A stretch of 64,000 bases of DNA from Gemmatimonadota bacterium. Lineage in GTDB: Bacteria > Gemmatimonadota > Gemmatimonadetes > Longimicrobiales > Gaopeijiaceae. The DNA lies in contig JBBEBG010000026.1 in NCBI GenBank assembly GCA_040882465.1, positions 46,518-110,517 on the forward strand, given 5' to 3'. Shown here in pieces: positions 11,301 through 59,056 of this stretch (positions are counted from its first letter, which is position 1; the number at the start of each line of letters is the position of its first letter). Both the position numbers and the translations under genes were made by a program. The notes beneath the pieces are model-generated. The model had not been told where the DNA came from, did not search any database, and saw only the letters and a list, made by a program, of their open reading frames with translations.

Positions 11301-12134
11301 TCAGAAGCGGCCTCGGGCGCGCTCCTTCCCCGGTAAAATTTCGAGGCAGGTCGTCCACCATCCGGTTCGAATGGTCTCGATGAATTCGGCGGGGAGGTCC
11401 TCCACCGCCATCTCGTCCGCCAGCGCCCGATGATCGTACGCCAGGGGGACGAAGTGATGGACCACACTCCCCGCGGTCGCCTCCAGGAGGACATACCAGA
11501 CCAATGGCGTCCCATCGTTCGCGGGCCGACCCAGTGCGCCCACGTTCACGTACCGGCGGACGCCCTGGAGCTGGCGACTCCAATGAAGTCCGGTGTGCGT
11601 GCCGAGGAGGAGATCCGCCCCCAGGTCGTCTGCCATCGCCTCGAGGAAGTGTGTAGGGGTCGTCGTCTCCCAGAGGAATTCGTTCATCCTGCGCGGACTT
11701 CCATGGAAGGCGAAGACGCGAGTCTCCCCGATCCGGAAACGTAGATCCCGAGGGAGCGACCCCATCCAGCTTCGGTGCTCGGGAGCGGTGCGGGAAAAAG
11801 TGTACGCGTAAGAAATGTGCGCGAAGTGATTGTCGCGCGAATCGGTATACCCGCATTGGCAGTCCTCGAGGCCGCGCGCGAGCGAATCGTCGTAATTCCC
11901 GCGCACGACCGGAATTCCACCTTCCAGGATCAGCTCGACCGATCGGTCCGGATTTGGACCGAAGGCCCCGAGGTCTCCCAGGCAGAGCAGGGCTTCGGCT
12001 CCCTTGGCCCGCGCGTCCTCGAGCAGGGCGCGAAGGGCCAGGTGGTTCGAATAGACGCCGCCGAAGACGGCGACTTTCCGGAAGCGAGGTTCCGCATCCT
12101 CCGACCAACGCCCGGGGCGCCAGGGGGAGCTCAC
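11301..12134 (-). CDS. calcineurin-like metallophosphoesterase with altered metal ligands
   Basis: This 277-aa protein follows the YfcE/PrpE-like phosphoesterase pattern. The canonical SDIHGN block reads GGVYSN, so the first metal ligands Asp and His are Gly and Tyr. The GDL block is intact (CLGDLGAFGPNPD), the GNHD block reads GNYD, and the later His blocks remain (FHGSP and GTHTGLH). It may bind one metal, bind differently, or be non-catalytic. The GTG at 12134 makes a GTGA overlap with the radical SAM stop and sits next to the first conserved strand; an upstream ATG at 12200 would run far into that gene. Confidence 0.75.
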   Translation of the reverse strand: MSSPWRPGRWSEDAEPRFRKVAVFGGVYSNHLALRALLEDARAKGAEALLCLGDLGAFGPNPDRSVELILEGGIPVVRGNYDDSLARGLEDCQCGYTDSRDNHFAHISYAYTFSRTAPEHRSWMGSLPRDLRFRIGETRVFAFHGSPRRMNEFLWETTTPTHFLEAMADDLGADLLLGTHTGLHWSRQLQGVRRYVNVGALGRPANDGTPLVWYVLLEATAGSVVHHFVPLAYDHRALADEMAVEDLPAEFIETIRTGWWTTCLEILPGKERARGRF

Positions 12135-13075
12135 CGGTCCCGTCCCAGCGTGGGCGAGACGTTCGAACAGATCGCCCCGCTGACGTAGCAGGTGAAACAT
12201 GCGGACTCGGCGAGGAGAGCCTCGCGGGATACCGCCTCCCGGAGCGTCTCGCCGAGGCGTGCCGCCGGAGATTCAAGGAGGATGGGACAGGCGTATACAC
12301 CGCGTGCGGTGACGAGGCGGGCGCGCGTGCAGAGGAGTTGGCTCAGGTCGTATCCGTGCAGCATCTCATGGGTGACATGCTCCGTCTCGTCGTATGCCCG
12401 CGTCCGCTTCGCCTCTTCTCCGATGCGAAGGGGAGGAAGTATCTTGATGCGTGGACGGTCGTATCCCACCGATGCGAGAAGGGTGCGGAAGCTCTCGAGG
12501 GTCGCTTCGGTCTCCCGGTCGGGCCAGCTCTGCATACACGACACGATCGGGAGGAAGCCCGCGGCGACGAGCTCCGTGACTCCCTCCATGCAGCGCTCGA
12601 AGGTCCCCTCGCCGCGGATCGGGTCGTTTGTCTCCGAAGAAAACCCGTCGAGAGAGACACGTAGCTCCAGCGTGTACCGGGAGCCCTTCGAGAGCTCCGC
12701 GAGGGCGCGCGCCCGGCGCGCCGGAATCAGGGTCGCGTTGGTGAGGACGGTCGCCGGGCCCAGGGCGAGAGCGTCCTCCAGGATCCCTTCGATCTCCCGA
12801 TTCATGAAGGGCTCTCCGCCCGTGAAATAGTAGTCTTTCACCGCGAGCCCGCGGGACTCTTCCAGCGCCGCGCCGACTTCTTCCCGCGTCATAAACCAGG
12901 CCGAATGGTTCTCGGGAGCACACGAGATGAAGCAGTGCCGGCATCGGAGGTTGCAGATGGTCCCGGATACCTGGAACCAGAGCTCGTCGAGCGACTGGAG
13001 GGGGACGGACGGGGCGGCCGCGACCGCGCCGGGGGCCCCGCTCCCGTGCGCCACTGGAAGGTCCAGACGCCCCAT
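12131..13075 (-). CDS. radical SAM protein with C-terminal cysteine cluster
   Basis: The protein (314 aa from the ATG at 13075) opens with the radical SAM motif CNLRCRHC, followed by the GGEP motif in YYFTGGEPFMNREI. The C-terminal region carries further cysteines (LLCTRARL, YACPIL, ACFTCYV, AICSN), as in SPASM-type proteins that hold extra iron-sulfur clusters and often modify peptides. No small precursor peptide gene is evident nearby. It starts 8 bases after the carbonic anhydrase stop and overlaps the metallophosphoesterase start, so the three form an operon whose shared purpose is unknown. Confidence 0.8.
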   Translation of the reverse strand: MGRLDLPVAHGSGAPGAVAAAPSVPLQSLDELWFQVSGTICNLRCRHCFISCAPENHSAWFMTREEVGAALEESRGLAVKDYYFTGGEPFMNREIEGILEDALALGPATVLTNATLIPARRARALAELSKGSRYTLELRVSLDGFSSETNDPIRGEGTFERCMEGVTELVAAGFLPIVSCMQSWPDRETEATLESFRTLLASVGYDRPRIKILPPLRIGEEAKRTRAYDETEHVTHEMLHGYDLSQLLCTRARLVTARGVYACPILLESPAARLGETLREAVSREALLAESACFTCYVSGAICSNVSPTLGRDR

Positions 13076-13083
13076 GGGGAGGC

Positions 13084-13785
13084 CTATCGGCTCCGGCCTT
13101 CCGCGACTCCCGCCGGAAGGAACCCCTCCTCCCTCCACCGCGACGTCGGGAGGGGAAGCGCCTGGAGGCGGCCGGACTCGACCTCGAAGAGCCACCCGCG
13201 GAGGTGGAGGGGCGGACCCTCACCCTCGAGGCGGCGGCGGACGCTGGGATGGGTGAGCGCGTTTTCGAGCTGGGCGATGACATTGAGGGCTGAGAGTTGG
13301 TCCTCGCGCTCCTCGCGGTTCTCGATTCCGGCGAGCTCGTTCCGATGAAGCGCCGCGAGCTCGCGCACCGGAGTGAGCCAGGTGCCGAGCGCCCCCTCCT
13401 CCACCCCGTCCAGAGCGGCACCTACCCCACCACAGCGGGTGTGGCCGCACACGATCAGGTGGCGCACCTCCAGCGTGTGGACCGCGAACTCGAGCACTGC
13501 CGCCGCCGCGGGATCCCCGGGGACCACGAGGTTCGCGATGTTCCGATGGATGAAGAGGTCGCCGGGGGTCGCCCTCGTGATCGTGTCGAGGGGCTTTCGG
13601 GAGTCACAGCATCCGACGAAGAGAAAGGGGGGACGCTGAATCCGCGCGAGGCGGTCGAAGGCCCGTGGGTCTTCACGAACCCGCGCTTCGGCCCAGTCCC
13701 GATTCGCCTCCAGGAGCCGCTCCGCTTCGTCGGCTCCTTCGCCGCGCCCGACCCACCGGGGTGCATCCCGGTCATCCATCCGCAT
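13084..13785 (-). CDS. beta-class carbonic anhydrase
   Basis: This 233-aa zinc enzyme interconverts CO2 and bicarbonate. The zinc ligands are visible: Cys in VGCCDSR (with the Asp-Arg dyad), and His and Cys in VCGHTRCGG. The segment GDLFIHRNIANLV is conserved in the family. A GGAG seven bases upstream supports the ATG at 13785. It is the first of three genes with the radical SAM and metallophosphoesterase proteins. It may supply bicarbonate for carboxylases or simply be co-transcribed. Confidence 0.92.
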   Translation of the reverse strand: MRMDDRDAPRWVGRGEGADEAERLLEANRDWAEARVREDPRAFDRLARIQRPPFLFVGCCDSRKPLDTITRATPGDLFIHRNIANLVVPGDPAAAAVLEFAVHTLEVRHLIVCGHTRCGGVGAALDGVEEGALGTWLTPVRELAALHRNELAGIENREEREDQLSALNVIAQLENALTHPSVRRRLEGEGPPLHLRGWLFEVESGRLQALPLPTSRWREEGFLPAGVAEGRSR

Positions 13786-57485: not shown

Positions 57486-59056
57486 CGCGGGCGGGGTTTG
57501 AGGGTCGCCACCGGGACGATCATCTCCTCGGGCGAGATGCCACCGTGGAGGAAGGCCCCGCGGTACCGGTTCTGGTACTCGCGAAGCTTCGTCGGATACA
57601 CGAGAAAGTAGTCCTCCAGCGCGAGCACGTATCCCGTCCCGATTCTCCCGTGCGGGATGCGGAGGTCGGCCGGATCAGAGGTCGCGAAGACCGCCTTCGG
57701 GTCCTCTGCCTTGAGATCGTATCCGAACTTAAAGCGGAGGTTCGAAGTCGCGTCCTTGCGCGCGAAAACCGTCGTGGGACGGTTGCAGTGGATCGAGCCA
57801 TGATCCGTCGTGAGGACCGTGGAAATTCCCTGCGCCGCGACCTCTCGCAGGACCTGCAGGAGGGAGGATCTTTCGAGCCAGGACCGCGTGAGCTCCCGGA
57901 GCGAGATCTCGTCGCGGGCCACCTCCATGAAAACCGGAGACTCGCCTCGCGAGTGGATGAGGAGGTCCATGAAATTGAAGACGAGGGCGACGACCCCCCC
58001 CTCGGTCTTGAGGGCAGAGGTCACGCGAGCACGGAGCCGCTCTCCCTCCCGTTCGGAGAAGATCTTTTCGTAGTGGACCGGGATGTCGCGTCCGGCAAGA
58101 CTTCGGAGATGGCGTGTGAGGAGCGGTTGCTCGAAATCGTTCAGGCTCCCTTCTTCCCCGATCCCCTCCCACCACCCCGGTCGGTCCGCCGCGATTCGCT
58201 CGGGGAATTGCCCCGAAAAGATGGCGTTTCGCGAATACGGGGTCGCGGTCGGGAGGATGGAGTAATAAAGATCCTCCTCCACGTCGAATAGCGGCGCCAA
58301 CAGAGGGCGCATGACGCGCCACTGGTCGAGTCGCATGCAATCCAACACGACGAGGAGGACTGGATTCCGGCCGAGCAGCGGGAAGAGGTATCGCGTGACC
58401 AGGTCCGTCGAGAGGGTGGGGCGATCGCCTCTGTCCCTCATCCAGAGGGGATACACCTCCTTCACCCAGACGCCGAAGTCCCGCCGCAGGTCGCCCATCA
58501 GGGAGTTCACCGAGTCGAGCAGCCCCGTCTCGCCCGCCGCCTCGAGCCGGATGTGCCAGTCCGTCAGCTCGCTGAAAAGCTCCGCGAACTCGGCGGGGGT
58601 ACGCGCCGCCTCCCGACGCTCTTCGAGCCTCCGGAATCCGGCCGCGAAGTCCTGCGCGACCTGTTGTTGGCGGATCGAGGGACCCTCTAGGATGCGGGTC
58701 ACCATCGAGAGGACCTGACGCGGGCTCGCCGGTTTCACGAGGTAGTCATCCACCCGCCGGCCGATCGCTTCCGTCATTGTCCGGTCCTCCTCGGACTTCG
58801 TGATCATGACCACCCGCGCGTGCGGATCCTCGCGGCGGAGGATCTCCAGCACCTCCAGTCCCCGCCGCCCCGGCATCCTTTCGTCGAGGAGCACAAGGTC
58901 GTACGGCTCGTCCCGGAGGAGGGCGAGAGCGTCGTCGCCGTTCGCGATCGCGTCCACGTGATAGCCGCGTTGCTGGAGGAAGAGACAATGGGGCCGAAGG
59001 AGCTCGACCTCGTCGTCCACCCAAAGGATCCGCTTCGCGGCACGGAGATGGGTCAT
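57482..59056 (-). CDS. PorX-like response regulator with PglZ phosphatase domain
   Basis: This 524-aa protein has a receiver domain (acidic pair WVDDE at 12-16, phospho-acceptor Asp58, Lys108 in LVKPAS), a helical middle, and a C-terminal PglZ domain of the alkaline phosphatase superfamily. The metal-site residues are visible: Asp239 in VVLDCMRLDQW, Thr272 in LPTATPYSRNAIFSG, and Asp-His in LTTDHGSI. This is the architecture of PorX, which in Bacteroidetes controls type IX secretion and cleaves cyclic oligonucleotides. Here it leads an envelope lipid operon. The ATG at 59056 gives the full receiver domain. Confidence 0.88.
   Translation of the reverse strand: MTHLRAAKRILWVDDEVELLRPHCLFLQQRGYHVDAIANGDDALALLRDEPYDLVLLDERMPGRRGLEVLEILRREDPHARVVMITKSEEDRTMTEAIGRRVDDYLVKPASPRQVLSMVTRILEGPSIRQQQVAQDFAAGFRRLEERREAARTPAEFAELFSELTDWHIRLEAAGETGLLDSVNSLMGDLRRDFGVWVKEVYPLWMRDRGDRPTLSTDLVTRYLFPLLGRNPVLLVVLDCMRLDQWRVMRPLLAPLFDVEEDLYYSILPTATPYSRNAIFSGQFPERIAADRPGWWEGIGEEGSLNDFEQPLLTRHLRSLAGRDIPVHYEKIFSEREGERLRARVTSALKTEGGVVALVFNFMDLLIHSRGESPVFMEVARDEISLRELTRSWLERSSLLQVLREVAAQGISTVLTTDHGSIHCNRPTTVFARKDATSNLRFKFGYDLKAEDPKAVFATSDPADLRIPHGRIGTGYVLALEDYFLVYPTKLREYQNRYRGAFLHGGISPEEMIVPVATLKPRPR

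Follow-up and report, generated by a model that had tools for sequence, protein, structure and literature searches.

This study concerns two adjoining genes in a stretch of 64,000 nt of DNA (here termed the window) from a Gemmatimonadota bacterium (assembly GCA_040882465.1, contig JBBEBG010000026.1, positions 46,518-110,517 of the forward strand). They encode a radical S-adenosylmethionine protein (rSAM) and a metallophosphoesterase-fold protein (MPE) that is predicted to retain only one of its two metal sites. The pair is a conserved module, found across distant bacteria. The genomic context suggests, with a probability that we put at about 0.55, that it is a two-gene module of an organoarsenical (i.e. 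arsenosugar-type) pathway, the remaining genes of which are at other places in the genome. The best reading of the gene fusions and cassettes described below is that this rSAM would act where ArsS acts elsewhere, replacing it. In the window the pair has a carbonic anhydrase gene beside it, giving the arrangement:

11301-12134, minus strand: metallophosphoesterase-fold protein (MPE), 277 aa, Metallophos_2 35.5 bits
12131-13075, minus strand: radical SAM protein (rSAM), 314 aa, Radical_SAM 65.2 bits
13084-13785, minus strand: beta-type carbonic anhydrase, 233 aa, Pro_CA 147 bits

Conservation of the gene pair

The scores listed exceed the family cut-offs (27 for Metallophos_2, PF12850; 29.5 for Radical_SAM, PF04055; 25.7 for Pro_CA, PF00484), and none of the three proteins reaches the cut-off of any NCBIfam model. 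The genes are as tightly packed as a first-pass annotation of this DNA had stated. Eight bases (13076-13083) separate the carbonic anhydrase and rSAM genes, and the MPE gene starts with the GTG of a GTGA overlap with the rSAM stop codon. That annotation had proposed a single operon of unfamiliar composition that included a degenerate phosphoesterase. Comparison with other genomes upholds the association of the rSAM with a degenerate MPE having fixed substitutions, while the carbonic anhydrase has no part in it.

A scan of genome contigs gave 80 loci with the rSAM, 25 on the Gemmatimonadota side and 55 others (mostly from Planctomycetota, with one from Verrucomicrobiota). Of these 55, the MPE is present in 52, one is cut by the end of the contig and two have no MPE. 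On the Gemmatimonadota side, 12 loci have the MPE after the rSAM, on the same strand and no more than 1.2 kb away, and one locus meets a contig end; the remaining 12 have no MPE, although there was room for it. Within the taxonomic family of the window the rSAM is present in 63 of 121 genomes, using a cut of our own. The MPE is found in 37 of the 121, in every case with the rSAM on the same contig and never without it (0/37), and the distance between the two genes is 2-181 bases in 36 genomes and 3870 in one. The phylum of Thalassoglobus was represented by 236 genomes, ten of which have a strong rSAM match (E < 1e-120), adjoined by the MPE in nine; there was no strong MPE match in the 20 genomes checked from the 207 that have no rSAM match.

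A search of plasmids for the pair gave one informative match, p546-1 of Roseomonas haemaphysalidis (locus L167). Its operon comprises TIGR04282, DUF547, two rSAM genes, an ABC transporter of the PhnD/PhnE (phosphonate) type and a degenerate MPE. The rSAM is 34% alike and the MPE carries the identical G/Y/G changes (see below), so that this is a transport-linked version of the pair. The Marinobacter match from the same search has no partner gene.

A carbonic anhydrase match was found in four of 113 loci (L001, L014, L087 and L093). These represent three genomes, because L014 and L093 are one locus (of genome G077). In a separate count it was present in one of the 80 rSAM loci. We therefore reject the three genes as a unit; with the carbonic anhydrase beside the pair in only three genomes, it is a passenger, a chance neighbour without a consistent part in the module. 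The trio is thus broken in relatives as regards the carbonic anhydrase, and in the 12 of 25 Gemmatimonadota-side loci above as regards the MPE.

Predicted loss of one metal site from the phosphoesterase

The full superfamily motif is D-x-H...GD...GN...H...GHxH. We take the ligands of metal site 1 to be the D-x-H residues together with the second His of GHxH, those of site 2 to be the Asn, the His and, again from GHxH, the first His, and the Asp of GD to bridge the two sites. The window MPE has G25 and Y28 in place of the Asp and His of D-x-H, and G182 in place of the second His of GHxH, while the site 2 residues D54, N80, H144 and H180 are retained. On this assignment its clade has lost exactly the site 1 set and kept the site 2 set.

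These positions are fixed. Residues G25, Y28, D54, N80, Y81, D82, C92, C94, H144, H180 and G182 are constant in all 78 full-length rows of an alignment of 83; the other five rows are shortened by the choice of start, and are gapped or misaligned at G25 and Y28. They are also constant in all 51 rows of a cleaner alignment, where the further invariant polar residues are Y81, D82, C92, C94 (giving an invariant C92-x-C94), N151, E152, W155, N206 and D207. The loss of D-x-H recognised in the first-pass annotation is therefore real and its substituted residues are constant, and the third loss, at G182, had been overlooked. A supposed further loss, the change of GNHD to GNYD, is not one. Paralogues in related genomes that are 30-38% identical read S-D-[IV]-H, GD, GNYD, HG and GHTH, and so have GNYD together with intact D-x-H and GHTH.

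The degenerate MPEs form a single clade in the tree (support 100/97), which includes the Roseomonas plasmid protein on a long branch, and the intact relatives form a separate paralogous clade. There is no ortholog with intact ligands among the 78 full-length members of the degenerate clade.

We also observed MPEs with an intact motif in arsenic operons (L120:5027-7592, L122:348-3424 and L123:2785-5926), with an Acr3-like (SBF) permease and an ArsR-like regulator, the latter named by eye; those of L120 and L123 also hold an ArsM-like methyltransferase. We considered these MPEs as a possible sister group of the degenerate clade, and rejected this because the tree places them with other intact paralogues; they are thus context only.

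The predicted structure of the MPE (pLDDT 89.7) matches PH1004 (2gju, Z 26.3, 234 residues aligned), Pfu-1218608 (1nnw, Z 26.1, 233 residues) and the SapH/Spr1479 Ap4A hydrolase (3qfm, Z 26.0, 244 residues), all of the same fold although with only 21-24% sequence identity. Both 1nnw and 2gju read A-N-I-A where intact members have S-D-I-H. The pattern differs from that of the MPE, yet it means that this family is not alone in having an altered first site.

The radical SAM protein

The CxxxCxxC motif of the rSAM is formed by C41, C45 and C48, and there are six additional cysteine residues, C52 and a C-terminal set comprising C249, C263, C293, C296 and C303. The extra C-terminal cysteines noticed in the first-pass annotation are constant; C52 and all five are present in 110 of 110 aligned sequences (with C41, C45 and C48 in 108-109), and all nine occur in 47 of 47 rows of a second alignment. 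The C-terminal pattern, C249-x9-G259-x3-C263 and C293-x2-C296-x6-C303, is invariant. It may be compared with Cx9GxxxC ... CxxC, which we take to be the pattern of twitch/SPASM auxiliary clusters. The C-terminal five persist in more distant relatives, but a second subfamily has serine at the position of C52.

The best NCBIfam model for the rSAM, and for several of its relatives, is the Rv1681 family (NF049973), at 91.4 bits and so far under the cut-off of 380. The match to the ArsS model TIGR04167 is confined to the N-terminal region (58.6 bits; cut-off 300), and the window protein does not resemble ArsS outside the radical SAM core. The best solved neighbors of the model structure (pLDDT 86.1) are SkfB (Z 19.9) and BlsE (Z 19.2), with DesII and BtrN also among the neighbors. 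BlsE, DesII and BtrN act on sugars or aminocyclitols. The SkfB and BlsE matches to this predicted structure are tied, and reveal no function. The rSAM belongs to an uncharacterised family with links to both ArsM and the TIGR04282/TIGR04283 cassette discussed below.

In two loci (G018:C3:16520-17641, from Gemmatimonadota, and L046:10001-11110) the rSAM match is split in two as if interrupted, with a gap of ~200 bases in the former.

A flavoprotein partner and other neighbours

A flavoprotein of the pyridine-nucleotide type is encoded directly upstream of the pair in 43 of the 55 loci outside Gemmatimonadota, and in planctomycetes the flavoprotein, rSAM and MPE genes often overlap by 4 bases. 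In Gemmatimonadota the flavoprotein gene is usually elsewhere in the genome, although it adjoins the pair in G057. It is present in 37/37 genomes with the MPE compared with 9/84 of the others, counts that are uncorrected for shared descent. Of the 26 genomes having the rSAM without the MPE, just two have the flavoprotein, G050 and G065, and in both the contig stops after the rSAM. The flavoprotein completes the module as a third partner.

The flavoprotein operon in Gemmatimonadota (L137:1172-8891, on contig C8 of the window's genome, and L139-L153) contains by eye two FAD-linked-oxidase-like genes and one like an Fe-S protein, together with an M20-type hydrolase, unnamed genes and an enzyme of the MenC/N-acylamino-acid-racemase type (TIGR01928, 366 bits in L139). 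In three planctomycete loci (L031:7793-8974, L043:279-1457 and L052:8639-9808) a 3-dehydroquinate-synthase-type gene (PRK06203, 506 bits for that of L031) replaces the flavoprotein directly upstream of the rSAM. Locus L052, from Thalassoglobus neptunius KOR42, has both the rSAM and the MPE.

Elsewhere in the window, a tRNA-Pro(cgg) is called at 57493-57591; at 99 bases it is longer than usual.

Association with arsenic genes

An ArsM-like methyltransferase gene lies directly upstream of the rSAM-MPE pair in L130 and L129. Loci L173, L174 and L175 encode fusions of the rSAM with ArsM, which in the tree fall within the C52-bearing subfamily to which the window protein belongs. The Ser-type rSAM adjoins ArsM in L176, L177 and L179. 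Locus L187 has on one strand, in order, a TIGR04282-like gene (100 bits, under the cut-off of 134), the flavoprotein, the rSAM (54%), the MPE (61%), ArsM, an aquaporin, one further gene and TIGR04283. Relatives of the rSAM lie inside a cassette containing the TIGR04282 and TIGR04283 glycosyltransferases in L187 and L177, and beside TIGR04283 only in L173.

The genome of the window has this cassette at L209 (TIGR04282-TIGR04283-DUF547), apart from the rSAM-MPE pair, and an ArsM at L207 (368 bits, over the PRK11873 cut-off). The cassette lies beside recA and alaS (named by eye), and in most of ten loci it comprises a dihydrolipoamide-dehydrogenase-like gene, VTT/DUF547 genes and both transferases; that of the window's genome has neither the dihydrolipoamide-dehydrogenase-like gene nor the VTT gene. 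Across the 121 genomes of the family, and uncorrected for shared ancestry, TIGR04282 exceeds its cut-off in 60/63 genomes with the rSAM compared with 12/58 of the others, and TIGR04283 is present in 57/63 compared with 11/58. Genome G051 does not have this rSAM, and its cassette with both transferases holds a true ArsS (417 bits; cut-off 300). A second sample comprised 37 genomes, mainly of planctomycetes; here a strong match to ArsM (E < 1e-100) was found in 11 of 17 genomes with the rSAM (one of the 11, G131, being the source of the query) compared with 3 of 20 without.

Two further sets of ArsM-like sequences were observed. Proteins of ~825-860 aa (L162:4265-6745, L184:3656-6238 and L185:4417-6891) combine an N-terminal part with a radical SAM domain and, at the C-terminus, an ArsM-like domain, and are a second kind of rSAM-ArsM fusion. 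The genome of the window also encodes two ArsM-like methyltransferases, on contigs C36 and C40 (L205:6368-8413 and L206:4504-5902; 173 and 172 bits to PRK11873, cut-off 263); by eye each adjoins an anti-sigma-like gene, and one a sigma-factor-like gene also.

Comparison with known systems

According to PMC8552651 and PMC12159101, ArsS adenosylates arsenic in arsenosugar synthesis, and ArsL transfers a 3-amino-3-carboxypropyl group in arsinothricin synthesis. The ArsM-ArsS pathway is that of Synechocystis, and its ArsS was studied by Cheng et al. 2021. The module studied here resembles this pathway in that an rSAM enzyme goes with ArsM, and TIGR04282/TIGR04283 are found either in the cassette itself (L217) or in the same genome. 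It differs in the C-terminal part of the rSAM with its five cysteines, and neither the MPE nor the flavoprotein is matched in the two ArsS cassettes observed (L200 and L217).

The arsinothricin system ArsQML likewise has ArsM plus an rSAM enzyme (PMC8552651), and its ArsM model is the best match for the ArsM-like proteins of L130, L163 and L187 (342-349 bits; cut-off 500). According to the same source, however, BgArsL is 428 aa long and conserves just three cysteines, unlike the nine in the 314 aa of the window rSAM, which is therefore not an ArsL by these features.

Our literature searches found no paper joining the Rv1681 name with radical SAM, and none joining an rSAM and a metallophosphoesterase with arsenic. 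As far as those searches reach, the module is undescribed. We would place it, with its chemistry predicted, alongside the known arsenic chemistry of ArsM plus rSAM.

Possible pathway and alternative explanations

The following sequence of events may be envisaged for an organoarsenical pathway. Arsenite would first be methylated by ArsM. The rSAM would then make a carbon-arsenic bond or work on the methylated arsenical in place of ArsS, as suggested by the fusions and the cassette, with the flavoprotein probably providing a redox step. The fold of the MPE, its retained residues and its strict pairing with the rSAM suggest that it could bind one metal ion at site 2 and hydrolyse, or only bind, a phosphorylated or nucleotide-like intermediate. 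A single-metal hydrolase and a binding partner seem to us about equally likely. Finally the TIGR04282/TIGR04283 glycosyltransferases, going by their annotation, might complete the product.

A number of observations weigh against this pathway. The pair in the window has no ars gene beside it, and none of the 80 closest loci (L005-L084) has ArsM near the rSAM. A search at 1e-15, which used a divergent query from one ArsM type and did not extend to other types in those genomes, yielded no ArsM match in 17 of the 37 genomes with the MPE, ten of the 17 belonging to genus g2. ArsM of any kind is weakly tied to the rSAM (45/63 compared with 28/58, p 0.015). The name arsenosugar for TIGR04282/TIGR04283 is an annotation only, the cassette is widespread, and the co-occurrence counts share the lack of correction mentioned above. 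No degenerate MPE lies beside the ArsM-fused rSAMs of L173-L175, and the Gemmatimonadota operon of the flavoprotein holds no recognisable arsenic gene. Lastly, one Gemmatimonadota clade keeps the rSAM and the glycosyltransferases without the MPE and flavoprotein, which are therefore dispensable there.

The module could instead serve a small-molecule pathway unrelated to arsenic (e.g. modification of a nucleotide, sugar or lipid), with the cassette mislabelled and the link to ArsM in distant relatives reflecting a different, recruited use. The lack of ArsM near the rSAM in the closest loci, the 17 genomes without an ArsM match at 1e-15, the structural similarity of the rSAM to BlsE, DesII and BtrN, and the dehydroquinate-synthase-like gene beside it in L031, L043 and L052 would fit such a role. 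We nevertheless consider this unlikely, though far from negligible, given that three ArsM fusions fall within the same rSAM subfamily, that a true ArsS occupies the same cassette in G051, and that TIGR04282 is so much commoner in genomes with the rSAM than in the others.

A second alternative concerns the MPE, which might be catalytically dead and serve the rSAM as a partner that binds a ligand or acts as a scaffold. There is an analogy in Vps29, a protein of phosphoesterase fold that works in the retromer, and Vps29 chains are among the Foldseek matches of the MPE. The loss of every residue specific to site 1 in 78/78 full-length members, and the strict pairing with the rSAM, would be consistent with this. 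By contrast, all four site 2 residues and many further polar residues are invariant in 51/51 rows, beyond the needs of a bare scaffold, and we regard a dead MPE as less likely than not. Its likelihood is not additional to that of the arsenic pathway, because the two are compatible.

It is very improbable that the rSAM, whose cysteines are twitch/SPASM-like, acts on the product of a small peptide gene in its neighbourhood, as in systems for ribosomally synthesized and post-translationally modified peptides. The best structural neighbour, SkfB, is a maturase of this kind and the sub-threshold NCBIfam matches of the rSAM include peptide maturases; however, SkfB is tied with BlsE, no conserved small peptide gene was found near the pair at >=60 aa or at >=35 aa (shorter genes were not covered), and in many loci the overlapping ends leave no space between the flavoprotein, rSAM and MPE genes. 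The first-pass annotation had suggested looking for small peptide genes; a peptide-modifying role is unsupported. A functional operon of all three genes, for which the 8-base gap in the window and the upstream carbonic anhydrase in G077 (L014/L093) and G065 (L087) might be cited, is barely credible, being contradicted as a general rule by the counts given above.

Implications

We know of few assignments for the enzymes that follow ArsS in the synthesis of arsenosugars and arsenolipids. If the arsenic pathway is correct, the rSAM family, the one-site phosphoesterase and the flavoprotein would be concrete candidates in two phyla that are abundant in soil and sea. The MPE would in addition be a clean natural case of a two-metal phosphoesterase in which one site has gone entirely and the other has been strictly maintained. 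The carbonic anhydrase need no longer figure in the hypothesis. More tentatively, an ArsS-independent organoarsenical pathway may be widespread in Gemmatimonadota and Planctomycetota, in which multi-cysteine rSAM enzymes would form the carbon-arsenic bond, and a phosphoesterase without its first metal site would act as a single-metal enzyme or as a receptor for an arsenic-bearing intermediate.

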